Assembly: GCA_902826615.1 (NCBI GenBank)
Contig: CADEFN010000001.1
Coordinates: forward strand, 868,001-932,000
Source: an uncultured Gemmatimonadota bacterium
GTDB taxonomy: Bacteria; Gemmatimonadota; Gemmatimonadetes; Gemmatimonadales; Gemmatimonadaceae
Direction: 5' to 3'
Length of the DNA stretch: 64,000 nt
Shown: piece by piece, positions 22,499 through 43,020 of the stretch
How positions within the stretch are numbered: position 1 is the first letter of the stretch
How the letters are laid out: each line of letters starts with the position of its first letter
The notes under the pieces: model-generated
What the model was told of the DNA's origin: nothing
Databases searched by the model: none
The model's input: only the letters and a program-made list of their open reading frames with translations
Program-made: the position numbers and the translations under genes

Positions 22499-25400
22499 AT
22501 GACCCACATCTCTCGTTTCTCGTTGCTCCTGCTCTTCGGCCAAGGCGTTCTGCCGGTCGTGGCGGGAGCTCAAGGTGCGCGGCCAGCTGCCCGCGCCGTG
22601 GCCATGGCGCCCATGGCCAATGTCGACACCATGCTCTTCAATGGACTCCGCTGGCGCGAGGTCGGCCCCGCACGGGGGGGACGCTCGGTGGCGGTTGCCG
22701 GTTCGGTCCAGCGGCCCAACGAGTACTGGATGGGCACTACTGGTGGCGGTGTCTTCAAAACCACCGATGGCGGACAAAACTGGGCCGCCGCGACCGACAA
22801 ATACTTCGGCGGCACCATCGGGGCCATCGCGGTGGACCCCCAGAACGCCGACATCGTCTGGGTGGGCGGCGGCGAAACCGACATCCGCGGCAACACCGCG
22901 GGGGGCGACGGACTCTGGAAGTCCACAGACGCCGGACGCACCTGGAGTTACCTCGGCTGGAAGTACGAACACATCTCCACCATCCGGGTGCACCCCACCA
23001 ACAACAACGTCGCGTGGATCGGGGTGTTCGGCGACCCGTTCCGTGCGGGTGACCGCGGACTCTACAAAACCGCAGATGGCGGCAAGACCTTCACCCGGGT
23101 TCTGCATGTCAACGACTCGACCGGCGTGATCGATGTCGCCCTCGACCCGTCCAACCCCGACGTGATGTACGCGGCGATGTGGCAGGCCTGGCGCTCCCCG
23201 TGGGGCATGTCGTCAGGGGGCATTCACTCGGCGATCTACAAGTCAGTGGATGGGGGCGCGACGTGGACCAATCTCATGAAGACGGCCAGGGGACTGCCGG
23301 CCGGCCCGGTGGGAAAGATCGGGCTGGCGGTATCACCGGCAAAGGCAAGCCGTGTGTGGGCCATCATCGAGCATGACTCGGGTGGGGTGTACCGCAGCGA
23401 TGACGCCGGGGCCACCTGGAGCTACATCAATCGTGATCGCAAGCTGCGCCAGCGTGCCTGGTACTACTCGCAGCTCGCGGCGGACCCGAAAGACACCAAT
23501 ACGGTCTATGCGCTCAACGTGGGCTTGTATCGCTCGCGCGATGGGGGCAAGACGTTCCGCGAGTCGATCAACGTGCCGCACGGCGACAATCACGATCTCT
23601 GGATAGCGCCTGACAATCCGCAACGCATGGTCGAGGGCAATGACGGGGGCGCCACCGTGTCAACCAATGGCGGGCGCAGCTGGACCGATCAGGAGTTTCC
23701 CACGGCGCAGTGGTATCACGTGGATGTCAGCAACGATTTTCCCTACAAGATTTGTGGCGCCCAGCAGGACAACTCCACGCTCTGCGGGCCGAGCCGCAAG
23801 CCGGGACGTGTGAATCTGAGCGACTGGGAGGACTCCGGTGGTGGCGAGTCGGGGTATGTCACGCCGCATCCCACCAAACCGTGGATTGTATTCGCCGGCA
23901 GTTATGGCGGTCTGCTGACGCGAAAGGACATGCGCACCGGCTTTACCCGCGATGTCACCGTGTACCCCAACAATCCGATGGGTGAGTCGTCGGAAGACAT
24001 CAAGATCCGCTTCCAGTGGACCTTTCCGATCGTGTTCTCACGGCATAACCCGACTGTGATTTACGCCGGAGGGTCGCGCCTCTTCCGTTCCACCAACGAA
24101 GGCGAAAGCTGGACGATGATTGGCCCCGAGTTCTCGCGTGCCGACAAACGCACCATGGGAGCGAGTGGTGGCCCGATCACCAAGGACCAGACTGGTGTCG
24201 AGACCTATGCCCTGATTTTTGCCTTTGACGAGTCACCGGTGAAACCGGGCGTGCTCTGGGTGGGCTCCGACGACGGCCTCGTGTGGGTGTCGCAGAACAA
24301 TGGTCTCACCTGGACCAATGTCACGCCAAAGGACATCGGCGATTTCACCCGCATCTCGATCATCGAGCCGTCCAGCTTTGACGCCGGCACCGCGTACATT
24401 GCCGCCAATCGGTATCAGCAGGGTGACAAGAGCCCGATTCTCTACAAGACCACAGACTACGGCCGCACCTGGTCGAAGATTGTCAACGGCATTGCCCCCG
24501 ATCACTTCCTGCGGGTGGTCCGCGAGGACCCCAAACGTCGCGGCATGCTGATGGCGGGCACGGAACGCGGTGTCTATCTGTCGTTTGACGATGGACAGAA
24601 CTGGCAGTCGATGCGCCGCAACCTCCCCCTCGTCCCGGTGCATGATCTGCGGTTCAAGGACAACGATATCGTTCTCGCCACACACGGGCGCGGTTTCTGG
24701 GTGATGGATAACATCTCGGCGTTGCGAGACCTGAACGCCACTGTCGCGGCCAAGCCGGTGCACCTCTTCAAGCCGGCCGAAGCCTACCGGACGGATTTCA
24801 GTGGTGGCTTCTTTGCGCAGCTCATGGCCATGATGGGTGGTGGGGGATCGCAACTTGGCGCCAACCCGCCGGGCGGGACGCTGGTGCAGTACTACCTGAA
24901 GGAGGCCAATCAGCGTGTGCAGCTCGAGTTCCTGGATGTCGCTGGCAAGACCATCAAGACCTTCACCAGCGAGCAGGACTCCGAAACCGCCGCCGACTCG
25001 CTGCGCATGGAAGGAATGAAAGCCGCCATGGCCGACTCCCTGGTGAAAACCGGTCTGGCGCGTGATTCGGCGGTCAAGGTGGCCACCGCTCGCATGAGCG
25101 ACCCGGCGACCCTGATGCAGATGGTGGATATCGAGGAGTTCTTCTCGCGTCCGCCGCGTCCCGCCCGGGTGCCTAACAAGGTCGGGCTCAACACCTTCTC
25201 CTGGGACATGCGGTATCCCGACGCTGAACGCTTTCAGGGACTCATCATGTGGGCGGCGGGCACCACCGGACCCCTCGCCCCTCCCGGGACCTTCTCGGTA
25301 CGCCTCACCGCCGGTGGAACCGCCGAGACGCAGACCTTCCGGCTGCGCAAAGACCCCCGCGCCGAGGCCACCGATGCCGACCTGCAGGAGCAGTTCCGCC

Positions 25401-25870
25401 TGCTGATGGCCATTCGCGACAAAACCACCGAAGCCAACAATGCCGTGCGCCTCGCGCGCAACATGCGCTTCAATGTGGACGATCGCACGGGCAAACTCAC
25501 GGCGCAGCAGCAGGCCGAGTTCAAGGCCATTGCCGATCGCATGATGTCGGCGGTGGCGGAGAACGAGAACGAGGTCTACCAGACGAAGAACCAGTCCTCG
25601 CAGGACCCGCTCAACTACCCTATCAAGCTCAACAACAAGATTGCAGCGCTGGCGGGTACGGTGAGCAGTGGCGAATACCGTCCCACCAAACAGAGTCGTG
25701 AGGTGTTCACCGAACTGGTCACCAAACTCGATGCCCAGACGCGGGCGATGAACAAGGTGATGGACGACAACCTGCCGAAGCTCAACGCCATCCTCAAGGC
25801 CGCGGGGCTCCCCGAACTCCGCAAAAGCTTCGAGGAGATCAAACCGGCCAAGCCCGCAGTGGCGATGTAA
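22499..25870 (+). CDS. Secreted BNR/VPS10 (sortilin-like) repeat protein
   Basis: An 1123-residue protein. ATG 22499 gives a signal peptide ending near AGAQG; the longer frame is rejected. Residues ~40-740 are BNR/Asp-box repeats of a beta-propeller, seen as SxDxGxTW-like units (STDAGRTW, SVDGGATW, STNEGESW, TTDYGRTW, SFDDGQNW). The remaining ~380 residues contain helical and Ig-like segments and a charged coiled region (ATDADLQEQFRLLMAIRDK). This layout is common in Gemmatimonadota, Acidobacteriota and Bacteroidota, and is often annotated glycosyl hydrolase, but no catalytic residues are evident. Periplasmic or cell surface. It converges with the kinase gene with no bases between the stops. 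Confidence 0.85.
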   Translation: MTHISRFSLLLLFGQGVLPVVAGAQGARPAARAVAMAPMANVDTMLFNGLRWREVGPARGGRSVAVAGSVQRPNEYWMGTTGGGVFKTTDGGQNWAAATDKYFGGTIGAIAVDPQNADIVWVGGGETDIRGNTAGGDGLWKSTDAGRTWSYLGWKYEHISTIRVHPTNNNVAWIGVFGDPFRAGDRGLYKTADGGKTFTRVLHVNDSTGVIDVALDPSNPDVMYAAMWQAWRSPWGMSSGGIHSAIYKSVDGGATWTNLMKTARGLPAGPVGKIGLAVSPAKASRVWAIIEHDSGGVYRSDDAGATWSYINRDRKLRQRAWYYSQLAADPKDTNTVYALNVGLYRSRDGGKTFRESINVPHGDNHDLWIAPDNPQRMVEGNDGGATVSTNGGRSWTDQEFPTAQWYHVDVSNDFPYKICGAQQDNSTLCGPSRKPGRVNLSDWEDSGGGESGYVTPHPTKPWIVFAGSYGGLLTRKDMRTGFTRDVTVYPNNPMGESSEDIKIRFQWTFPIVFSRHNPTVIYAGGSRLFRSTNEGESWTMIGPEFSRADKRTMGASGGPITKDQTGVETYALIFAFDESPVKPGVLWVGSDDGLVWVSQNNGLTWTNVTPKDIGDFTRISIIEPSSFDAGTAYIAANRYQQGDKSPILYKTTDYGRTWSKIVNGIAPDHFLRVVREDPKRRGMLMAGTERGVYLSFDDGQNWQSMRRNLPLVPVHDLRFKDNDIVLATHGRGFWVMDNISALRDLNATVAAKPVHLFKPAEAYRTDFSGGFFAQLMAMMGGGGSQLGANPPGGTLVQYYLKEANQRVQLEFLDVAGKTIKTFTSEQDSETAADSLRMEGMKAAMADSLVKTGLARDSAVKVATARMSDPATLMQMVDIEEFFSRPPRPARVPNKVGLNTFSWDMRYPDAERFQGLIMWAAGTTGPLAPPGTFSVRLTAGGTAETQTFRLRKDPRAEATDADLQEQFRLLMAIRDKTTEANNAVRLARNMRFNVDDRTGKLTAQQQAEFKAIADRMMSAVAENENEVYQTKNQSSQDPLNYPIKLNNKIAALAGTVSSGEYRPTKQSREVFTELVTKLDAQTRAMNKVMDDNLPKLNAILKAAGLPELRKSFEEIKPAKPAVAM

Positions 25871-27664
25871 CTACTTGAGGTCGAGTTTGCCGGAGGGCCG
25901 GAGGGAGCGCAGTCGCCACGAGTTGCCACTGCGCTCCAGGTCCGCGACAAACGAAGCACTGCTTTTCCGGTTGGCGCCGAATGCCGTCCGTGCGGTAAGT
26001 GTGGCGGCAAAGCGTGCCGTGGCCCGGCTGCCGTCGACGTCGATGTCCGGGGCGCCTGAGAGACTCATGCTCAGGCGCCCTTCGCGCATCAGCGAGATCC
26101 ACTGCGCTTCCGCGCCGCCCTGCAGCACACTCCCCACGAAGCTTGTGTTGCCACTACCGACCGCGTCGGCAAAGCGGTCCAGTGCTTCGGCGATACCAGC
26201 CGATGCAGCGCGACCGTTGTCAGGGGGTGTTCGCTCCTCCGGCTCCGGTGGCTGCGGTCGCACCGGGGTCTGCGGCTCCGGCTCTGCGACGGACGAAGGC
26301 TTGGGGTCGGTCCCTCCCTGCGGCGTCGGCGCAACCTTCCCGCTCTTCGGCGGTCGAACGGGTGCTGCCGCACGCTCGGCGGGGCGCAGCGTGACGACGC
26401 GCTCTGGAGGGTCGATTGGGGCGGGCACCACGCCACCAGCCGGAGGAAGGTCGGCGGCAGGCACGGTCGCGGGAGTTTCCGGTGTGCGTGCGCTGTCCGG
26501 CGCCTGCGGCACCACCGCAGCTGTGTCTGGTTTGTCATCACCGCCGGTCCGCGCCGGCGTGTCGTTCGGGTTCAGGATGCGCAACGCGACCGCCAGCACC
26601 GCGAAGAGGCCAGCCGTTCCGGCCCACGTGCGCCAATCCTCCAGCCATGCCCTGACGCGGTCCCCCGTGCCGATGGAGTGCCTCGCGTCACGCGAAGGCA
26701 CAACATCGGCGAGTTGCGTGACAGGCACCGCGGCCACGGGATGATCGGCAGTCACGGCGACTGGCGGTGTTGCGGCCGCACGCGCCGGGGTGGGTGGCGC
26801 GACGTCGGCAAGCCTGGTGGCTGGGGCCGGACGTGAAGGAGCCGTGCCCTGGGCGGCAATGGTCGCGCGAAAGCTGGCCGCGAGTGCGCGGGCGTTAGGC
26901 GCGCGGTCCTGGGGCTGCTTGGCCATCGCGTGCTGGATGAGCGCATCCACCGCGTCGGGCACGTCGGGGACGGCCTCGCGCACCGGCGGTGCCGGCTCAT
27001 GCAGCTGCTTCATCATGAGCTCGTAGTCACTGTCCGCCTCGAACGCCACACGACCCGTGATGAGTTCGTACACCACCGCGCCTAACGAATACAGATCGCT
27101 GCGCCCATCCACCTCCTCGCCGCGCAACTGTTCGGGGGACATGTACATCGGCGTCCCAACCGCCGCTCCCACGCGCGTCTGACGACTGCGCCCGAGAATA
27201 CGCGCAATGCCGAAGTCCATCACCTTCACCACGCCGTCGCGGGTGAGCATGATGTTGGCCGGCTTGATGTCGCGATGGACGACACCCTTGTCGTGGGCAT
27301 GATCCAGGGCATCGGCAACGGCGGCCGCAAGCTCCAGCGCACGCGGCCAGGCAAGGCGCCCAGACCGCTGCACTATCGACTCCAGTGTTTCGCCGCGGAT
27401 GAACTCCATCACCAGCACAGCGTCGCTCCCCGACCGCTCCAGCCCGAACACCGCCGCAATATTGGGATGGCTGAGTCGAGCCAGTGCCACCGCCTCCTGC
27501 CGAAAGCGTTCACTCAATGCCGCCTGCCGTGCGAGGTCGGGGCGCATCACCTTGAGCGCCACCTCACGATCGAGCATTTCATCGAGACCGCGATACACGG
27601 TCCCCATGCCACCATCACCGATCCGCTCGAGGATGCGGTAGTTGCCCACCGTGGTGCCGATCAT
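25871..27664 (-). CDS. Ser/Thr protein kinase, last gene of phosphosignalling operon
   Basis: A 597-residue kinase: glycine loop RIGDGGMGTVY, catalytic Lys in VALKVM, HRDIKPAN at 130-137, DFG at 150-152. The activation loop reads RQTRVGAAVGTPMYMSPEQ with T163 in a T-R-V-G setting that recurs in its operon partners. After the kinase domain (~265) comes a Pro/Ala-rich linker, a membrane helix at about 335-355, a long proline-rich stretch, and a ~125-residue C-terminal domain (DRFADAVGSGN, SNSWRLRSLRPSG end) that resembles periplasmic NTF2-like folds; that last point is a guess. ATG 27664 overlaps the PP2C stop (ATGA). Confidence 0.93.
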   Translation of the reverse strand: MIGTTVGNYRILERIGDGGMGTVYRGLDEMLDREVALKVMRPDLARQAALSERFRQEAVALARLSHPNIAAVFGLERSGSDAVLVMEFIRGETLESIVQRSGRLAWPRALELAAAVADALDHAHDKGVVHRDIKPANIMLTRDGVVKVMDFGIARILGRSRQTRVGAAVGTPMYMSPEQLRGEEVDGRSDLYSLGAVVYELITGRVAFEADSDYELMMKQLHEPAPPVREAVPDVPDAVDALIQHAMAKQPQDRAPNARALAASFRATIAAQGTAPSRPAPATRLADVAPPTPARAAATPPVAVTADHPVAAVPVTQLADVVPSRDARHSIGTGDRVRAWLEDWRTWAGTAGLFAVLAVALRILNPNDTPARTGGDDKPDTAAVVPQAPDSARTPETPATVPAADLPPAGGVVPAPIDPPERVVTLRPAERAAAPVRPPKSGKVAPTPQGGTDPKPSSVAEPEPQTPVRPQPPEPEERTPPDNGRAASAGIAEALDRFADAVGSGNTSFVGSVLQGGAEAQWISLMREGRLSMSLSGAPDIDVDGSRATARFAATLTARTAFGANRKSSASFVADLERSGNSWRLRSLRPSGKLDLK

Positions 27665-28521
27665 GCAGCGCCTCCCACCCGCGTGGTGCGCACCTCGCGC
27701 GGCTCGACGGCGACTTCGATGACAGCAACAGAGATGTTGTCAAACCCACCGGCCTCCCGCGCCAGCTCCACCAGCCGGTCACACGCCTCCTGCGGCCCCA
27801 GCGACAGCACCACACCGCGCACGACCTCGTCGGCGACCAGGTCGTACAACCCATCGGAGCACAGCATCAGGCGGTCTCCGGCGCGGAGACGGAGCGCCTG
27901 TGGCCAGTGCGTCACCTCCACTCTGCGATGGCTGCCGAGCGCCCGGGAGATGACGTTCTTGTCGGGATGCGAGCGTGCCTCCTCCCGCGTGATCGCGCCC
28001 TTGCGCACCAGCTCCATCACCGCCGAGTGATCCTCGGTCATGAGCAGGAGATCGTCGTCGCGAATCATGTAGCAGCGGCTGTCGCCGACATGGGCGCAGT
28101 ACGCCATCCCCTGCCGGATGAGGACCGCCGTGCACGTCGTGCCCATCCCTCGCAAACGCGGCTCTCGGTCGGCCGCGGCAAAGACCGCCGTGTTGGCCGC
28201 TTCCGTCGCCCGCACCAGCAAGGCATGACCGTCTCGTTCGGTGGCGTTGAGGCCGGCAAGCAGCGACTCCATGGCCAGATGGCTCGCCACCTCACCACCT
28301 TCGTGACCTCCCATGCCGTCGCACACGACGATCAGCATGGTGTCAGGGCTGGTGGCGGATTGCGCGATTCGAATGGCGTCCTCGTTGATGGCGCGGACGC
28401 AGCCGACGTTGGTGGCCACCCCCGTGACGATGCGCAACCCGCCAGGTGCTGCACGCAGCTCGGTGGTCGGGCGTACCACCTCGGCCGGCGAGCGGGAGAA
28501 CAACCGCGACAGAATACTCAT
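27661..28521 (-). CDS. PP2C-type Ser/Thr phosphatase
   Basis: A 286-residue PPM phosphatase. Metal-binding motifs are all present: INEDA at ~45-49, VVCDGMGGHEGGEVAS with D68, CAHVGDSRCY, MTEDHS, LCSDGLYD and FDNISVAV. It has no membrane segment and should be a soluble cytosolic phosphatase reversing the partner kinases. Its last residues (RTTRVGGAA) contain the same T-R-V-G as the activation loop of the next kinase. It overlaps the upstream kinase stop and the downstream kinase start by four bases each, so the three proteins are made in coupled amounts. Confidence 0.95.
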   Translation of the reverse strand: MSILSRLFSRSPAEVVRPTTELRAAPGGLRIVTGVATNVGCVRAINEDAIRIAQSATSPDTMLIVVCDGMGGHEGGEVASHLAMESLLAGLNATERDGHALLVRATEAANTAVFAAADREPRLRGMGTTCTAVLIRQGMAYCAHVGDSRCYMIRDDDLLLMTEDHSAVMELVRKGAITREEARSHPDKNVISRALGSHRRVEVTHWPQALRLRAGDRLMLCSDGLYDLVADEVVRGVVLSLGPQEACDRLVELAREAGGFDNISVAVIEVAVEPREVRTTRVGGAA

Positions 28522-29822
28522 GGAGTGCCTGACGAGAAGGAGGCAGCGCCTGCGTCGCTGCGAGGAGGAGCAGAGGGGAGAGACGATCGCTGCATGGTGT
28601 ACTGAAACTCATTCGGGCCATCGCTCACCTGGAAACGCTGCCGGAGATCCTCAAAGCCGGACTGCCGGAGGGTGACGTCGAGCCATTCGCCGATGGGTGC
28701 GTCCATGGTGAACGGAGTGTGGCCGATGACCGCGCCGTTCCGGAGCACCTCGGCGGTTCCCTCGAAGATCTTGATCACTACACTGCGGCGCTCCGGTTTT
28801 GACGGAGTCTGCCCGGTGCGAAGGATCCCGGTATCCGGGGCAGGATCAGGCGCCGGAGTGGGCACAACGGGGAGGGGCGCCGGGGCACAACAGAGCCGCT
28901 GGCTCTCCCGCCACACGAAGGTGCCTGCCACCAACGCCGCTCCTGCCGAGAGGATCAGTGACCACCGATGCCAAGGCGCGCGCGGGTTAAGGAGTGGTGG
29001 CGGGGCGAGCAGGCGTCTGACTTCGTCGCGCAACACACCGGCAGAGAGAAAGCGGTCCTTCGGGTCCACTTTCAGGCATCGGGCAATCAGGCGTTCGGTG
29101 TCAGCAGCGATGCCGGCATGGTGCAGCGATGGGGCCTCATAGGCGCCCTTGAGGATCCGTGCCATCACGACCGTAAAGGAGTCGCCGCGAAAGGGCACAT
29201 GTCCGGTCAGCATTTCATAGAGCAATACTCCCAGTGCCCACACATCCGACGCCGGGGTCACGGGCTCGCCCCGCACCTGTTCTGGAGAGAGGTAATGAAG
29301 CGTGCCCACCACACTGCCGTCTGTCGTGAGTTTGGGTGAGTCGGCCGCCTTGGCGATCCCGAAGTCGAGGAGCTTGAGCACACCCTGCTCGTCGATCTTG
29401 ACGTTGTTGGCCTTGAGGTCGCGATGAATGATCCCGCGATCGTGAATGTGGGCCACCGCGTCACAGAGAGTCGCAAACAACGGAAGCGCTTCACCGGGAC
29501 TCAGGGCCCCGTACTGGAGACGATGCTCCAGCGTGTGACCCGTGACGTACTCCATCACGATCCCCGGCCGCCCGTCGGTTTCGACCGTGTCGTACCAGGC
29601 CGCAATGTTCGGGTGCTGCAAGGTGGAGAGAATGCGCGCTTCGTTGCGAAACCGCTCGACAAATGACGGAGAGCGATGCGAGGTGGTGAGGATCTTGAGC
29701 GCGGCCACCTGGCCACTCTGGAGGTGTACCGCCCGGTACACCTCCCCCATGCCGCCGGCCCCCAGGAAATCGACCAGCCGCCAGGAGCCAGCGGTCCAGC
29801 GCAGGTAGGTACCGGCGGGCAT
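28518..29822 (-). CDS. Ser/Thr protein kinase with PEGA domain
   Basis: A 434-residue kinase. Kinase domain: FLGAGGMGEVY, catalytic Lys in AALKIL, HRDLKANNV, DFGIAK and GTLHYLSPEQ. A membrane helix lies near residues 285-303 (WSLILSAGAALVAGTFVW), preceded by a short linker. The extracytoplasmic tail ends in a PEGA domain (IKIFEGTAEVLRNGAVIGHTP), a fold often associated with surface sensing. GGAG precedes the ATG. It lies 15 bases after the FHA-protease gene and overlaps PP2C by four bases. It would phosphorylate Thr/Ser on operon partners, with PP2C as eraser. Confidence 0.93.
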   Translation of the reverse strand: MPAGTYLRWTAGSWRLVDFLGAGGMGEVYRAVHLQSGQVAALKILTTSHRSPSFVERFRNEARILSTLQHPNIAAWYDTVETDGRPGIVMEYVTGHTLEHRLQYGALSPGEALPLFATLCDAVAHIHDRGIIHRDLKANNVKIDEQGVLKLLDFGIAKAADSPKLTTDGSVVGTLHYLSPEQVRGEPVTPASDVWALGVLLYEMLTGHVPFRGDSFTVVMARILKGAYEAPSLHHAGIAADTERLIARCLKVDPKDRFLSAGVLRDEVRRLLAPPPLLNPRAPWHRWSLILSAGAALVAGTFVWRESQRLCCAPAPLPVVPTPAPDPAPDTGILRTGQTPSKPERRSVVIKIFEGTAEVLRNGAVIGHTPFTMDAPIGEWLDVTLRQSGFEDLRQRFQVSDGPNEFQYTMQRSSLPSAPPRSDAGAASFSSGTP

Positions 29823-29837
29823 GGGTGAACTCCGCTA

Positions 29838-31607
29838 CTACTTCGTGTTGGGTGTCACGGTCATCAGCTGCATGCCGAACTGGATCGGCACCGCAAAGCT
29901 GACCTGGGCATCGGCGGAACGGCCGGCGAAGTAGATCCCGATGACCCGCCCGGTGTTGTCGAACATCGGTCCACCGCTGTTCCCGCCGCCGGTCGAGTTG
30001 ATGGTGAGCTGGTAGCGGTCGCCGTACGGCGCATACGTCGCGTAGGCATCGGTGGCGGGGCCGTCGGCGGCACGCAGGATCTTGCCGATATTGCCGGCGG
30101 ACAGGGTCGGGTCGGGCACCGTACGCACCTGCGCTTCGCGATTGAAGGTGTCCTTCGACTTCACCACCGCCACCACTTCATCGGACAGACCGGGGTAGCC
30201 GAGCACCGTGACCTGGTCACCCACCTGCAGCGTTTTGTAGTTGTCGTTCAGCACGACCGGCTCGAGCGAGGACGGTGTTTCGATCTTCATGAGCGCCACA
30301 TCGTGCTGGTCGCTGACGCGCGCCACGGTAGCATCCACCGGGTTGGTATTCTTGCGGAATCGCACGTAGAGGTATTCCTGCCGACCACGAAACGCCTCGA
30401 TTTCGCCCTTGGGACCCGTTTGTCTCGTTTCCGACGGCACCCAGCGTTGCGGCGGGTTGGTGGTCATCACGTTCCCCTGCCGGTCCAGCAACACCTCGCC
30501 ATTCGCATTCACCAGCACGCCGCCATCGTTGTCCCCGAAGCGGTAGGGCGCGCGCCAGTTGGCGGCCACGTGACGGTTGGTCAGAATGAAACCCGTGCTG
30601 GTGACAACAAAACCGCTGCCGGATCCATTCACGGCGATCGGTGAACCGCTGCTGGCATCGAGCGTCAGGTACGGCTCCACCTGATCGTCAGTGACCGCGA
30701 TGTAGGCCGGAATGGTGCTGCCAGCGCCGGCGATCAGCGGCACGGTACGCCCGTTGCGAAGCTTGATGGCGTTTGGCACGTACCGGTGGAACACCTGAGC
30801 GCCGGTTGGCGCGTAGATCAGGTTCCAGCTGAAGTCGACGGCCACGGTGGCGTTGGAGTACCGTGCCGCGATTTCGGTGGGGGTGATCCCGGCGCGGGCA
30901 CTGTTGGCGCGGTTCACGCTGTCCAGCCGCGCGCGTTCGGCCTCCAGCTTGCGCTGCATCTCGCTCTGGCTGTCCTTCTTTTGCTGGTCCACATCGTCCT
31001 GCAGCCGGTTCTTCTGGGCCTGCGACCACGCCACCACGGCCATCAGCATCGCCGCGGCCACGCCGCCCACGAGTTGCAGCCGCCGGTTGGTCTGCCGCTT
31101 GGTGTCGGTAATCATGCGCTCGACGGTGGCCTTCCCGATGCCACCGGCCGGTGCACCGCCCACGGCCCCCGACACCGGCGCCGGCGCGGAGCCCACGCGC
31201 GTCTCGTTCACCTGGGCCGTCGCGCCAGGGGCGCCGACATTCCCGAGTCGCGTTGCCTTGAGGTAGGCAGCAGGCAATGGGTCGATATCAAACTGGATTT
31301 CAGGGCCGCCCGCGCCGAGCTGGATCACGTCCCCGGGCAGCAGCGGCATGTCGCCGACCACGCGAAGTTTGTTGAGATAGGTGCCGTTGCGGCTGTTCAG
31401 GTCCACCAGCTTGAAGCGGTAGGGGTCGTTCGGCTCGCGGACGATGCGCGCGTGCTGGCGACCCACCAGGTCATCCTTGTCGGGATCGAACCGGACATTG
31501 GAGCCGGGGTCGCGGCCGAACACGAGTTCGGCAAACTCCTGCAGGGGAAACTCTTCGAGCTGACTGGCCTTCGAGCCTTTCAGATGACGGAGAATGACGC
31601 GTTCCAT
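29838..31607 (-). CDS. FHA domain-trypsin-like protease fusion, membrane anchored
   Basis: A 589-residue fusion with three parts. Residues ~20-105 are an FHA phosphothreonine-binding domain (FGRDPGSN, GRQHARI, NSRNGTYLN). A linker holds KATRLG (T119) and NETRVG (T136). One membrane helix is at about 178-194, followed by a charged coiled coil (~196-232). Residues ~245-585 are a trypsin-fold protease with triad H346 (TNRHVAA), D436 (HDVALMKI) and S544 (GGGNSGGPMF), so it should be active in the periplasm. The FHA part faces the cytosol where the kinases act. First gene of a four-gene operon; its Shine-Dalgarno lies in a potential stem described separately. Confidence 0.93.
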   Translation of the reverse strand: MERVILRHLKGSKASQLEEFPLQEFAELVFGRDPGSNVRFDPDKDDLVGRQHARIVREPNDPYRFKLVDLNSRNGTYLNKLRVVGDMPLLPGDVIQLGAGGPEIQFDIDPLPAAYLKATRLGNVGAPGATAQVNETRVGSAPAPVSGAVGGAPAGGIGKATVERMITDTKRQTNRRLQLVGGVAAAMLMAVVAWSQAQKNRLQDDVDQQKKDSQSEMQRKLEAERARLDSVNRANSARAGITPTEIAARYSNATVAVDFSWNLIYAPTGAQVFHRYVPNAIKLRNGRTVPLIAGAGSTIPAYIAVTDDQVEPYLTLDASSGSPIAVNGSGSGFVVTSTGFILTNRHVAANWRAPYRFGDNDGGVLVNANGEVLLDRQGNVMTTNPPQRWVPSETRQTGPKGEIEAFRGRQEYLYVRFRKNTNPVDATVARVSDQHDVALMKIETPSSLEPVVLNDNYKTLQVGDQVTVLGYPGLSDEVVAVVKSKDTFNREAQVRTVPDPTLSAGNIGKILRAADGPATDAYATYAPYGDRYQLTINSTGGGNSGGPMFDNTGRVIGIYFAGRSADAQVSFAVPIQFGMQLMTVTPNTK

Positions 31608-31701
31608 CGTGGCGTGTCCTCGTGGGAATGGCAGCCGGGAGGGGGCTGCGGTGGCGGTTCATGCGGCCTTCGGAAAGACAAGCGCAGGAACCCACGAGGA
31701 C
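31608..31701 (-). promoter_or_regulatory. Structured leader that can pair the FHA-protease ribosome binding site
   Basis: In the minus-strand transcript GUCCUCGUGGG (31701-31691) is followed 64 bases later by its exact complement CCCACGAGGAC (31626-31616). The second arm contains GAGGA (31621-31617), nine bases before the AUG at 31607, so the stem would hide the Shine-Dalgarno. Inside the loop a second hairpin (arms 31649-31644 and 31636-31631) can form. I do not recognise a known riboswitch or thermometer class. The complementarity is seen in the sequence; the folding and its role are inference. Confidence 0.5.
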
Positions 31702-31744
31702 AGATCACGCGGCGTTCGGCCCCGGGCAGGCCTCGGTATCTGGG

Positions 31745-34265
<2,521 letters not shown>

Positions 34266-34273
<8 letters not shown>

Positions 34274-34967
34274 CGAGCTCTCGCTGCAGGAAGGCTTTGG
34301 CAAAGGTCCAGTCGCGTTTTACGGTCGCTGGCGAAATACCCAGTACCTCGGCCACTTCCTCCACCTCGAGCCCGCCGAAGAATCGCAGCTCCACCACACG
34401 GGCGTATCGCGAATCCACAGTGGCCAGCTTGGACAGTGCATCGTCGAGCGCGATCACATCCAGGGCGCGTCCGGCGTCGCCCGTGTCCGCGAGGGCATTG
34501 TCCTCCAGCGTTACGCGCTCTCCGCCCTCACGTTTGGCAGCACTGCGCCGTCTCGCGTGATCCACCAGGATGCGTCGCATTGCCTGCGCGGCCACCCCAT
34601 AAAAGTGGGAACGCCCCTGCCACGTCACGCCCCGCTGATCGCTAAGGCGCAGATAGACCTCACTCACCAGGGCCGTGGGCTGCAGCGTGTGTCCCTCGCG
34701 TTCGCCGCGCATGTAGTGCGCCGCGAGATCATGCAGCTCCTTATAAACGAGGGCGATCAGCTGCTCCGAGGCATTCTGGTCGCCTTGCTGCACGGCCAGC
34801 AGGAGCCGTGTGACTTCGTGGGATGGATCTGACGCCGACACCGGGGAATGCGCGAAAGGAGACGAACTCAGCACTAAGGAATCAGTTGCAACTAATGGAC
34901 CGCAAGGGCTCAGGGGTCCATGAGCCGTGCGGGCGACTTCCTTCGCCTGAAGGGAAGACCAGGACAT
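34266..34967 (-). CDS. ECF sigma factor, TIGR02999-type, kinase-linked
   Basis: Region 2 shows LQPTALVSEVYLRLSDQRG and HFYGVAAQAMRRILVDHARRRSAAKREGG; region 4 shows YARVVELRFFGGLEVEEVAEVLGISPATVKRDW. The usual DAED of region 2.2 reads QPTA, placing a Thr there as in kinase-controlled ECF43 factors. ATG 34967 is preceded by GGAGGAG six bases upstream, which decides this start. However, residues 1-42 are unlike the family and include two TTA codons in unusual context, so GTG 34841 is a real alternative. The downstream kinase gene overlaps by eight bases. The upstream end is only 22 bases from a divergent barrel gene. Confidence 0.88.
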
Positions 34968-38452: not shown

Positions 38453-39352
38453 ATGCTCTCAATCAACCTCTCCGGTCGCCGCGCCCTGGTTGCAGGGGTG
38501 GCCGACGACGGCGGCTTCGGCTTTCAGATTGCCAAATCCCTCGCCGAGGCTGGTGCATCGGTGTGCGTGGCCACCTGGCCACCGGCGCTGAACATCTTTC
38601 TCAACCTGCTGGAACGCGGAAAGATCGACGACTCACGCCGCATGGCGGACGGGTCGCTTCTCCAGTTCGAGCGCATCTACCCGCTCGACGCCGCCTTCGA
38701 CACCATCGACGCCGCCCCCGAAGACATTCGCACCAACAAGCGCTACAAGGATGTCGGAGACTTCTCCATCCAGGGGCTCGCCGACCGCCTGACGAGTGAC
38801 TTCGGCTCACCTGCCTTCGACGTCCTTGTGCACTGTCTGGCCAACGGCCCCGAGGTGAAAAAACCCCTCCTCGAGGTGTCACGCGCCGGCTACCTCTCGG
38901 CAGTGAGTGTCAGTGCCTACTCTCTCATCGGAATGCTGCAGCGACTCGGTCCCCATATGCGCGAAGGGGGCAGCATCATCTCCCTCACGTACATGGCGAG
39001 CGAGCGCGCGATCCCGGGCTATGGTGGTGGCATGTCGTCCGCCAAGGCCGCGCTGGAGAGCGACACGCGCACGCTGGCGTTCGAGGCGGGGCGACGTTGG
39101 GGACTGCGCGTGAACACCGTGTCGGCGGGTCCCTACGCGTCGCGAGCGGCCAGCGCCATTGGCATCATCGATCGGATGGTGCAGTACTGCGCAAAAAACA
39201 CCCCGATCCCTGTCGCCTTGACGGCCGAAGAGGTCGGGACGGCTTCTGCGTTCCTCTGCTCCCCGCTGGCGAGCGGCATCACGGGGAGCACGGTCTATGT
39301 GGACAAGGGGTATCACGCCATGGGCATGGCGGTCGACGCCTTGGACCCCTGA
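38453..39352 (+). CDS. fabI: Enoyl-ACP reductase, plant/chloroplast-like long type
   Basis: A 299-residue enoyl-ACP reductase. The NAD loop is [22 protein letters not shown] ~30-residue insertion ([19 protein letters not shown] and [14 protein letters not shown]) is a mark of plant-type Fab[39 protein letters not shown] holds the active-site Tyr and Lys, and [14 protein letters not shown] the substrate loop. It reduces trans-2-enoyl-ACP in fatty acid synthesis. No Shine-Dalgarno is seen before ATG 38453; a leaderless or weakly translated start is possible. It converges closely with the TonB fusion gene (seven bases). Confidence 0.93.
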
Positions 39353-39359
39353 GCGCCGT

Positions 39360-40511
39360 CTACCGACGCCGCCGAGTCACGCTCGAGTCAGGGACGAAGT
39401 CGAACGGCTGCTGCACCACCTGCTGCACAGAATTGCCGTTCCGGCGCGCCGGTTTGTACCGCTGATCCTTCACCGCCCGGCGCACCGCTTCGCCTAACGC
39501 CGGGTGGGTGGTGGTCACCACGCTGAAGGTGTCCATCAGCACGTCGCCCCGGGCGTCGACCACAAACTCCACGGTCACTCGCCCGGCCACCGCGTTCTGG
39601 AAGAGCGAGTCGGGATAGACGGGGCGGATCAGATCAGACGAATCGGGCGCGGCCGGATTCTCCACCTCGTTGGCGGTGAACACCGTCTTCTGCTCGACCA
39701 TGCGCTCAATGATCGCGGCCGCCGACGGCTCATCCTTCTTTCGTTTGCGCGCGCGAGGTTCTCCCTGGCGTGTCCACAGGATGATCGTCCCGCCCGTGCT
39801 ACTGATGGCGCGATTGCCCAGGAACTCGGCCGGCACACTGGCGGGACCCGAGTAGATCTCCACGCCTTCGAACGAACGGGGGTCCACGGAATCGAGGTCG
39901 AACTCCCCAGCGTAGAGCGGGGTCCCGTCGAGCCAGACGAGCGGGGCGTTTCGTGCGCCCCGGAACCGCACCACCTGCTGGCCAAAGCCGCGCGTTTCCA
40001 CCCGCGCTCCGGGAATCATGCGAAAGAGATCCGTCATGTTCATCGGATTGCGCTTCTCGATCTGCTCACGGGTGAGAAAGTGCCCCATCCCGCGTCCGAG
40101 TCGTTCGTAAAATCCGGCGAAACGTCCTGTCAGGTTGCTGCGGCCATACACAATCAGCGGGTCCAGCTCCACGGCCACACGCGTGAGCACCACGTCGGCA
40201 GGAATGGTCTGACCTGCCAGCACATTCACGCGAAGTGTGTCGGGCCTGAAGCCGATGCGGCGGACACGGATCGAAGTCGCACCCACTGCGGCTTTGGCGA
40301 GAAGGAACTCCCCGTTTTCGTCCGTCTCGACCGCGAGGGTGGTCCCGCCGATCAGGATCTGCGCACCGGCGATCGCGATGCCTAACGAATCCTTGACCGA
40401 GCCCTTGATGCCCCCGGTGCCGATTTCGCCCGGTTGCGCCTGGGCCGCTGGGGCCACCCCAAGTACGAACGCAACAAGGGTTGCGCCCATCCCCCTCAAT
40501 AGTGCACGCAT
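39360..40511 (-). CDS. Carboxypeptidase-regulatory/TonB-plug/TonB C-terminal fusion, without barrel
   Basis: A 383-residue protein. A signal peptide (residues 1-26) is followed by a carboxypeptidase-regulatory-like domain (GGIKGSVKDSLG, ~33-115), a TonB-receptor plug domain (~125-255; FRGARNAPLVWLDGTPLY and SSTGGTIILWTRQG), a charged linker (ARKRKKDE), and a TonB_C domain (~295-375; IRPVYPDSLFQNAVAGRVTVEFVVDA, YKPARRNG). No beta-barrel is present. It joins a receptor gate to the energy-transducer domain that normally opens it. GGAGG precedes the ATG. It is divergent from the M28 peptidase gene. Confidence 0.8.
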   Translation of the reverse strand: MRALLRGMGATLVAFVLGVAPAAQAQPGEIGTGGIKGSVKDSLGIAIAGAQILIGGTTLAVETDENGEFLLAKAAVGATSIRVRRIGFRPDTLRVNVLAGQTIPADVVLTRVAVELDPLIVYGRSNLTGRFAGFYERLGRGMGHFLTREQIEKRNPMNMTDLFRMIPGARVETRGFGQQVVRFRGARNAPLVWLDGTPLYAGEFDLDSVDPRSFEGVEIYSGPASVPAEFLGNRAISSTGGTIILWTRQGEPRARKRKKDEPSAAAIIERMVEQKTVFTANEVENPAAPDSSDLIRPVYPDSLFQNAVAGRVTVEFVVDARGDVLMDTFSVVTTTHPALGEAVRRAVKDQRYKPARRNGNSVQQVVQQPFDFVPDSSVTRRRR

Positions 40512-40764: not shown

Positions 40765-43020
40765 ATGTCCTTGTCACTCAAGAGCTTGTATCGCTTGCTG
40801 TCCCTGTTGCTGGTGGTGGCTGCACCCGCCGGCGCCCAGTCCATCAGGGGGTTCACAACATCCGGCGTCGCCCCACAACGAGAGTGGGAAGCCCGCTACC
40901 AGCAGATTCCCGATCCGATGCGGCAGCGAGAGTATCTGCGCCGGTTGAGCGCGCGCCCGCACCACGTGGGCTCCCCGTACCAGCGACAAAATGCAGAGTA
41001 CATGCGGGATTTGTTCACCTCATGGGGATGGGACGCGACTCTGGCGGAGTATCACGTGCTTTTTCCGACACCAAAGGTTCGGCGTCTGGAGCTGACGGCA
41101 CCCACCCGGTACGTGGCCAAACTGCAGGAGCCCTCCCTCAAGAACGATCCCGCCACGGCGTTCATGGCCGAGCAACTCCCGAGTTACAACGCCTTCTCGG
41201 GTGACGGGGATGTCTCCGGCCCCCTGGTGTACGTGAACTACGGGGTACCTGCCGACTACGACGAACTCGAGAAGCGCGGGATTTCGGTGCGTGGGGCCAT
41301 TGTGATCGCGCGGTACGGCGGCAGCTGGCGCGGCATCAAGCCAAAGGTGGCCTTCGAGCATGGCGCGGTGGGCTGCATCATCTACTCCGATCCCCGTGAT
41401 GACGGCTACGCCCAGGGCGATGTCTATCCCAATGGTCCCTGGCGCCCCAAAGATGGCGTGCAGCGCGGGAGTGTACTCGATATGCCTGTGGCGCCGGGTG
41501 ATCCGCTCACCATCGGCACCGGCGCAACGCCCGACGCGCCACGCATCGATCGCAAGGACGCCACCACGATCATGAAGATCCCGGTGCTCCCCATCTCGTA
41601 TGAAGATGCGCAGCCCCTTCTTGCCGCCATGGGTGGACCCGTGGCCCCGGAAAGCTGGCGTGGTGCGCTCCCCATTACGTACCGCCTCGGTGGCAGTGGC
41701 CCGGCCCGCGTACGTCTTGCCGTCGAGCACGACTGGAAGCTGACCCCGGCCTTCAATGTCATTGCCACACTCAAGGGCAGCGCGGCGCCTGACGAGTGGA
41801 TCGTGCGGGGCAACCACATCGACGGCTGGGTGAATGGCGCGCAGGATCCCATCGCCGGCATGGCCGCCGAGCTGGAGGAAGCACGCGCGTTAGGCGAGCT
41901 GGCACGGCAGGGCTGGCGACCAAAACGGACCATCGTCTACGCCGGCTGGGACGCCGAAGAGCCGGCACTGCTCGGCTCCACCGAGTGGGTGGAGCACCAC
42001 GCCCCCGAATTGCGGCAGAAGGCCGTAGCCTACATCAATACTGACGGCAACGGGCGTGGCTTCCTGGGCGCTGGCGGGTCGCATTCGCTCGAACGCTTCA
42101 TCAACGAGGTGGCCCGCGAAGTGCGCGACCCCGAGACCGGGCTGACGGTCTGGCAGCGGCTTCAGGCCCAAACCATTCGTAACGGAAGCCCACAGGCCAA
42201 ACGCGAGGCACGCGAGCGCGGCGATCTGCGGATCGGGGCCCTCGGCTCGGGCTCCGACTACACTCCCTTCATTCAGCACCTGGGGATCGCCTCGCTCAAC
42301 CTGGGTTTTGGTGGTGAGGATGGCGGTGGCATCTACCACTCCATCTATGATACCCCGCGGTGGTACGAGACCTTCAGCGACAGCAACTATGTCTACGGAC
42401 GGGCGTTGTCCCAGGTGGTCGGTCTGGCGGTGATGCGTCTGGCCAGCGCCGATGTGCTCCCCTACCAGTTCACCAACCTCGCCGAAACACTTCGTGGGTA
42501 CGCCGGCGAAGTGAAAGTGCTGCGCGACGAGCTCTCGGCGCGCGCCGCCGAGACCAACCGCATGCTCGATGATGGGGTGATCGCGGCAACCGAGGACCCG
42601 CGCGCTCCGCTCAAGCCCCCAGCGCGAGAAGCCCTGGTGCCGTACCTCAACTTCGCGCCGCTCGACAATGCCATCGAAGCGTTTGGCCGCGCGGCGTCCG
42701 GCTACGAACGCTCGTTAGGCTCGGCGCTGCAGCGTGCGCCTGATGGCGCAGCGCTGACACGCGCCAATGCCATGTTGCGCGACACCGAACGGCAGTTTTC
42801 CTCTCCCGAAGGACTGCCACGCCGCCCCTGGTACAAACACCTGCTCTACGCCCCGGGGCTCTACACCGGGTATGGTGTGAAAACACTCCCGGGAGTGCGC
42901 GAGGCCATCGAGCAGAAGGACTGGGACACCGTCGCGCGCGAGGTGACACGCCTGGCGCAAGCCATCGATCGTGCGGCCACACATGTGGCAGCAATATCCG
43001 CCGTGCTGGAGGGAAAATGA
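40765..43020 (+). CDS. Secreted M28 peptidase (glutamate carboxypeptidase II-like)
   Basis: About 751 residues. ATG 40765 gives a signal peptide (to APAGAQS); the longer frame is rejected. After a protease-associated region (~200-290: VYVNYGVPADYDELEKRGI, GAIVIARYGG) the M28 core has zinc ligands in NHIDGW, GAQDPIAG, DAEEPALLG, NTDGNG and the His of GIYHSIYDTP. The last ~120 residues fit the transferrin-receptor-like dimerisation domain. The architecture is that of GCPII/NAALADase. It removes terminal, often acidic, residues from peptides in the periplasm or outside. It overlaps the next D-aminoacylase gene by four bases. Confidence 0.93.
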   Translation: MSLSLKSLYRLLSLLLVVAAPAGAQSIRGFTTSGVAPQREWEARYQQIPDPMRQREYLRRLSARPHHVGSPYQRQNAEYMRDLFTSWGWDATLAEYHVLFPTPKVRRLELTAPTRYVAKLQEPSLKNDPATAFMAEQLPSYNAFSGDGDVSGPLVYVNYGVPADYDELEKRGISVRGAIVIARYGGSWRGIKPKVAFEHGAVGCIIYSDPRDDGYAQGDVYPNGPWRPKDGVQRGSVLDMPVAPGDPLTIGTGATPDAPRIDRKDATTIMKIPVLPISYEDAQPLLAAMGGPVAPESWRGALPITYRLGGSGPARVRLAVEHDWKLTPAFNVIATLKGSAAPDEWIVRGNHIDGWVNGAQDPIAGMAAELEEARALGELARQGWRPKRTIVYAGWDAEEPALLGSTEWVEHHAPELRQKAVAYINTDGNGRGFLGAGGSHSLERFINEVAREVRDPETGLTVWQRLQAQTIRNGSPQAKREARERGDLRIGALGSGSDYTPFIQHLGIASLNLGFGGEDGGGIYHSIYDTPRWYETFSDSNYVYGRALSQVVGLAVMRLASADVLPYQFTNLAETLRGYAGEVKVLRDELSARAAETNRMLDDGVIAATEDPRAPLKPPAREALVPYLNFAPLDNAIEAFGRAASGYERSLGSALQRAPDGAALTRANAMLRDTERQFSSPEGLPRRPWYKHLLYAPGLYTGYGVKTLPGVREAIEQKDWDTVAREVTRLAQAIDRAATHVAAISAVLEGK

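Follow-up and report, generated by a model that had tools for sequence, protein, structure and literature searches.

The window analysed here, the whole stretch of 64,000 nucleotides, carries at 39360-40511 a gene for a 383-aa protein. As read from the sequence, GGAGG is followed by five bases and then by the ATG that starts the open reading frame. The gene and its parts were delimited as follows.

39360..40511, minus strand: whole gene, 383 aa, with signal-peptide-like start, CarboxypepD_reg, barrel-free plug and TonB_C (open reading frame translation and Pfam)
40434..40511, minus strand: probable signal peptide, residues 1-26, a hydrophobic run ending in AQAQ (by inspection)
40182..40409, minus strand: CarboxypepD_reg, residues 35-110 (Pfam; Foldseek to SusC NTE 9hfj)
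40140..40172, minus strand: place corresponding to the receptor TonB box, here degenerate, residues 114-124 (VELDPLIVYGR; three-way alignment)
40077..40112, minus strand: family motif preceding the plug, residues 134-145, with F134, R137 and G143 invariant (alignment)
39762..40076, minus strand: plug domain, residues 146-250, continuing to IILWTRQG (Pfam 146-226; alignments)
39849..39851, minus strand: S221, aligned with the barrel-locking K/R of receptor plugs (alignments)
39732..39761, minus strand: basic linker following the plug, residues 251-260 (EPRARKRKKD; seen in the sequence, with many relatives also basic here by eye)
39393..39626, minus strand: TonB_C, residues 296-373 (Pfam; Foldseek 6i97_D)
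39393..39431, minus strand: last strand of TonB_C, residues 361-373 (SVQQVVQQPFDFV; alignments)

Pfam matched CarboxypepD_reg at residues 35-110 (51.3 bits; cutoff 32.3), Plug at 146-226 (54.6 bits; cutoff 23.9) and TonB_C at 296-373 (44.5 bits; cutoff 24.6), and the NCBIfam model tonB_Cterm was matched with 36.1 bits (cutoff 27.1). Neither a barrel family (PF00593 included, at E ≤ 1) nor a signalling domain was matched by Pfam in the window protein. The order of signal peptide, carboxypeptidase-regulatory-like domain, plug and TonB_C proposed in the initial annotation was borne out, with three matches above cutoff and a start that is signal-peptide-like by inspection. At the level of domain profiles, the reading of the open reading frame as plug and TonB_C in one chain without a barrel was confirmed. 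The remark that such a combination is unusual was right. In the genome of origin, by coordinates, this is the only gene holding both a Plug (57 matches) and a TonB_C (7 matches).

The N-terminus ending in AQAQ looks cleavable by inspection, the starts of relatives are similar, and a lipobox scan of residues 1-26 gave no lipobox. Hydropathy did not single out this region, as the best 19-residue stretch (1.81) starts at residue 43, inside the carboxypeptidase domain, and the N-terminal maximum is 1.67. A proline-rich periplasm-spanning region was absent from residues 251-295 by inspection. We infer that the fusion protein is exported and soluble in the periplasm. The gene is flanked upstream by an M28 peptidase gene with a TFR-dimer domain (40765-43020, plus strand) and downstream by a convergent gene for a FabI-like reductase (38453-39352, plus strand). 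No split receptor adjoins 39360-40511 within the window, and with these two flanking genes the frameshifted full receptor considered in the initial annotation was not encountered.

The family profile matched solved SusC homologues over the carboxypeptidase domain and plug, the best being 9gbc (E = 3.8e-13); further profile matches were to the BtuB plug, the Cir plug and TonB C-terminal domains. The full-length AlphaFold model had a mean pLDDT of 51.4, with the plug near 35, and the model of the carboxypeptidase domain plus plug reached 58.7, with the plug mostly under 60. Using the full-length model, Foldseek supported the carboxypeptidase domain (match to SusC NTE 9hfj) and TonB_C (match to 6i97_D, E = 4e-4). 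Most Foldseek matches listed were to beta-sandwich domains, carboxypeptidase-type ones included, joined for the first model by TonB; no plug fold was among the 50 matches listed for either model. Given the low model confidence for this region and the lack of a plug among the fold matches listed, the plug assignment depends on sequence profiles, which identify the segment as a plug and not as the unrelated fold that had earlier been considered.

CarboxypepD_reg, Plug and TonB_C were matched by Pfam in 27 of 27 aligned members, the window protein included. No barrel was present in the matched stretches of these 27, and their frames stop soon after TonB_C. Within the window's genus, the gene was found in four of five genomes (the own genome counted) at 73-100% identity. 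Among the 99 genomes of the window's taxonomic family, with 19 first-look candidates scored per genome, 65 gave a match at E ≤ 1e-30 and 48 a match into TonB_C (residue 338 or beyond), 47 of these to residue 360 or beyond. The other 51 family genomes, some of them incomplete, gave no TonB_C-reaching match at E ≤ 1e-30; the fusion is therefore not essential to TonB transport. Across the phylum, the family profile matched 220 of 298 genomes at E ≤ 1e-30 (6 candidates scored per genome), and among the matches listed those reaching TonB_C were all in the window's family. Similarly, TonB_C was reached by none of the 50 matches from family f2 (31 genomes, up to 64 candidates per genome) and by none of the 56 from family f5 (29 genomes, up to 69 candidates per genome), all of which stop no later than profile position 261 of 367, close to where the plug ends. 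The whole-genome searches were confined to Gemmatimonadota. In a scan of named genomes, which covers close relatives only, whole-protein relatives occurred solely in Gemmatimonadota records (L012-L014), and four partial ones were found elsewhere (L015-L018). Viral contigs gave no relative. By title or abstract start, no description of a barrel-free plug-TonB_C protein was found among the papers listed from the open-licence PMC literature.

Whole-gene dN/dS was 0.06-0.50 in 10 pairs, and every computed domain value was below 1 (highest 0.64). For the three pairs within the window's genus, in which synonymous sites are partly saturated and two box-region values were not computable, dN/dS was 0.06-0.07 for the plug, 0.05-0.11 for TonB_C and 0.30-0.44 for the carboxypeptidase domain, the plug lying below TonB_C in two of the three. 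Judged by these comparisons, the fusion is a real, conserved family under purifying selection.

Twenty-five CarboxypepD-plug proteins without a barrel were examined, five from the own genome (L002-L006) and 20 from elsewhere (L131-L150). The chain ends 1-14 residues past the plug in 23 of them and 32 residues past it in L146; L133, which is without the search motif, by eye ends there too. L002, L003 and L004 were among the Pfam Plug matches of the own genome at E ≤ 0.001. These Gemmatimonadota proteins have in common with the fusions Tyr220 (25/25), Trp246 (24/25) and F134/R137/G143, and differ from them in being without TonB_C and stopping shortly past the plug.

For the alignments, 30 of 33 fusion rows were kept (L009, L011 and L019 were dropped as copies of L012, L013 and L014), and 27 receptor rows were obtained from 30 loci of the own genome, three loci giving no profile match. 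A quick tree of the carboxypeptidase domain plus plug was built from the 78 of 82 rows that were long enough, with SH-aLRT support and no bootstrap. In this tree, 23 own receptors are split with SH-aLRT 100 from the 55 fusion and barrel-free rows (30 + 25), as expected of barrel-free plug proteins forming a clade apart from receptors. The fusions cluster within the barrel-free group, on a branch with support 92 that holds all fusions and seven barrel-free rows; the barrel-free row L131 lies in an unresolved fork with fusions, and the fusion label needs two changes. On this evidence, the plug is a descendant of barrel-free CarboxypepD-plug proteins occurring across the phylum, an older plug family that is absent from the initial annotation, and TonB_C was most likely acquired in the window's family by a plug that already had no barrel, perhaps in a single gain. 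PDB 9gbc_A, a TonB-linked outer membrane receptor and the best solved match to profile A2, shows EVYRG..VPVGF, the fusions EVYSG..VP.EF. Receptors of the 9gbc type may be the lineage source of the barrel-free plugs.

The barrel-lock place at position 221, which by numbering we take to be FhuA R133, is K/R in none of the 30 fusions, in all 19 own receptors that have a letter there (the position is a gap in 8 of the 27 receptor rows) and in 6 of the 25 barrel-free rows; in the profile alignments Cir shows R and SusC shows K. According to the excerpt used of PMC11658791, a conserved K/R of the plug bonds plug to barrel, and the FepA plug, when isolated, showed unfolded behaviour. R184, the other arginine, is conserved in 30/30 fusions and 25/25 receptors with a letter. 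Tyr220 and Trp246 occur in 30/30 fusions and, respectively, in 0/19 and 0/21 receptors with a letter, and F134, R137 and G143 are invariant in 55/55 fusion and barrel-free rows.

Cysteines at 188 (within two columns) and 240 are both present in 24 of the 30 fusions and both absent from six, with no mixed case. The pair occurs in 25/25 barrel-free rows and in 0/22 receptors with letters at both places (five receptor rows are without letters there). It does not strictly define the fusions, and it is absent from the window protein and its genus. The six cysteine-less fusions form two clades on the tree, one of which is the window's genus, a pattern suggestive of two losses, each of both cysteines together; where present, the pair probably forms a disulfide. 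If the plug folds alone, the cysteine pair might offset unfolding, the window's genus doing without it. The TonB-box threonine (position 122) was found in 3/30 fusions, 5/25 barrel-free rows and 22/25 receptors, and positions 116, 119 and 121 of the box strand are largely hydrophobic.

Seven TonB_C matches were obtained in the own genome, that of L051 being below the curated cutoff. By inspection, L046, L047 and L049 have an anchor-like start; L048, L050 and the lipoprotein-like L051 are short and without an anchor; the fusion completes the set. The fusion TonB_C shows a YP motif, as does the own TonB L047. Its last strand (residues 361-373), presumably the strand that pairs with the TonB box in TonB structures, carries V-x-Q-[VL]-[VML] in 29 of 30 fusions, the remaining one being cut by a contig end. 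Identity to the fusion over the last-strand stretch (14 positions) was 8 for L047, L049 and L048, 6 for L046 and 3 for L050 and L051, and over the TonB_C body (59 positions) 25 for L047, 18 for L049, 27 for L048, 20 for L046, 26 for L050 and 14 for L051. Since the last strand is equally close (8/14) in the anchorless L048, its conservation may reflect the fold and not box binding. In the FhuA and BtuB co-crystals, as given in the excerpt used of PMC9249621, the TonB box adds a strand to the C-terminal sheet of TonB, and box binding is placed around TonB residue 160. A little ahead of TonB_C, the mature N-terminus of L048 (own genome, C1:1054702-1057938) holds RVVITATSSVGRR, which resembles the TonB box of receptors; L048 is possibly a minimal box-plus-TonB_C protein.

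Compared with known systems, the fusion has the same N-terminal order as SusC/Oar-type receptors, with profile matches to the SusC homologues 5t3r and 8aa4, but it has TonB_C instead of a barrel, its lock K/R is lost and its TonB box is degenerate. Of the traits of a TonB-dependent receptor it thus shows the plug and neither barrel nor lock K/R, and the SusC/RagA model TIGR04056 gave 28.2 bits against a cutoff of 368.25. With TonB energy transducers it shares a C-terminal domain with the YP motif and a last strand as in L047; unlike them, it has a signal-peptide-like start with no evident anchor, no proline-rich spacer, and a plug and carboxypeptidase domain in front. The model for MxcH, the myxochelin receptor (NCBIfam NF038079, 792 positions), is by name and length a full receptor with a TonB_C-like part in front. 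Residues 289-375 of the fusion (TonB_C) matched its start (positions 2-86) with 33.5 bits against a cutoff of 925, the fusion having no barrel.

Our tentative preference is for a periplasmic protein that, without being energised, serves receptor TonB boxes as adaptor or cap, a role that the sequence makes quite possible if short of probable. The exported protein would stay soluble in the periplasm, and its TonB_C, similar to the own TonBs but without an evident inner-membrane anchor, would pair with outer-membrane receptors at their TonB boxes; of the 57 own-genome Plug matches, 52 lie in receptor-sized frames. The plug and carboxypeptidase domain would supply a second binding surface, and the fusion would compete with energised TonB, or hand over to it, and so tune receptor use. 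An adaptor or cap is favoured because the box-receiving side is kept and the box-offering side degraded. It is weakened by the equally close last strand of L048, by the unfolded behaviour of the FepA plug on its own, by the six of 25 barrel-free relatives that keep the lock K/R, by the family genomes without a TonB_C-reaching match, by the low-confidence plug fold in both AlphaFold models, and by the carboxypeptidase domain, which may itself contact TonB. In the excerpt used of PMC12204202, this domain of Bacteroides receptor(s) is implicated in TonB interaction, which leaves a decoy that captures TonB with some likelihood. A decoy working through its own TonB box is disfavoured by the degeneracy of the box. 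The initial suggestion of a decoy, adaptor or signalling part is thus partly supported overall: an adaptor (or cap) acting on receptors through TonB_C is compatible with the data, the box decoy is disfavoured, and signalling found no specific support.

Alternatively, TonB_C and the basic linker and tail could bind peptidoglycan or outer-membrane lipid as an envelope tether, with the plug as scaffold or oligomerisation module. This slimmer possibility would suit the linker EPRARKRKKD and the tail RRRR, alike in many relatives by eye, and the occurrence of TonB_C in other anchorless or lipoprotein-like products of the genome (L048, L050, L051), but constraint on the plug is strong (dN/dS 0.06-0.07 for the pairs of the window's genus), beyond the apparent need of a scaffold, and no Pfam peptidoglycan-binding domain was found among the family members scanned. 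Self-association is unlikely. Here TonB_C would pair with the pre-plug strand (114-124) of its own molecule or of an adjacent one, producing closed monomers or chains; strand position and TonB_C do stand in one chain, with 116, 119 and 121 largely hydrophobic. However, the box threonine is as rare in fusions as stated above (3/30 vs 22/25 in receptors), a similar strand persists in the barrel-free relatives, which have no TonB_C, and therefore needs no TonB_C partner, and the full-length model is too poor for docking. A role in signalling or regulation, such as in an ECF sigma pathway, is distinctly improbable: an ECF sigma factor gene lies at 34266-34841 in the window with kinase-like genes nearby, but it is 4.5 kb from the fusion gene and in none of the 25 neighbour clusters listed for the window and 20 relatives, and the fusion is without a signalling domain. 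It is scarcely conceivable that the gene is what is left of a TonB-dependent receptor after truncation or a frameshift. Its parts do stem from receptor and transducer families, but a broken receptor was ruled out by the 48/99 genomes, purifying selection, unrelated flanks and the SH-aLRT of 100 in the tree.

The adaptor or cap can be put in a more specific, and doubtful, form: a secreted, anchorless TonB-box-binding protein would throttle or distribute TonB-dependent uptake, TonB_C capping and the repurposed plug docking. In this equally doubtful sense, the fusion would act on the Ton system as its genetically encoded antagonist or adaptor, built on an older lineage of plugs that had left the barrel. 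In E. coli, the periplasmic part of TonB expressed alone reportedly inhibits transport; if true, this is the effect expected of a natural fusion. If TonB_C binds receptor boxes, bacteria would control TonB-dependent uptake by a dedicated soluble protein. Plugs are known as parts sitting inside a barrel. Conserved plugs in which the barrel-contact residue is lost and, in most, a cysteine pair gained allow a free-standing plug domain to be tested.

Gene neighbourhoods of 20 relatives (10 to 14 kb each) were compared. Six of the 20 (L052-L056, L062), which are nearer relatives, share FabI-like, M28, PLD or ThrE neighbours with the window, and the clade L057-L061 has its own, different set. The neighbourhoods of L070 and L071 are uninformative, wrong frames having been called in very high-GC stretches and the fusion itself missed. 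As to function, the neighbourhoods are uninformative; as neighbours vary between clades, the fusion probably acts in trans.

Within the window, 22499-25870 encodes a large Sortilin/Vps10-type BNR-repeat protein, whose sequence cluster recurs in the fusion neighbourhoods of 4 of 20 relatives, and 25871-34841 contains a series of genes that are kinase-like as judged from sequence clusters and appearance, with the ECF sigma factor, of the PF07638 type, after them. At L060:7548-10868, tandem barrel-free multi-CarboxypepD plug proteins lie beside the fusion, the third being a short fragment. In 5/5 neighbourhoods examined from genus g23, the gene immediately downstream of the fusion, in the same direction, encodes a ~130-aa protein, in several cases with a signal-like start; its positions are as follows.

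L057:7172-7570, g23 ~130-aa protein
L058:7149-7562, g23 ~130-aa protein
L059:5592-5984, g23 ~130-aa protein
L060:7180-7563, g23 ~130-aa protein
L061:5563-5940, g23 ~130-aa protein
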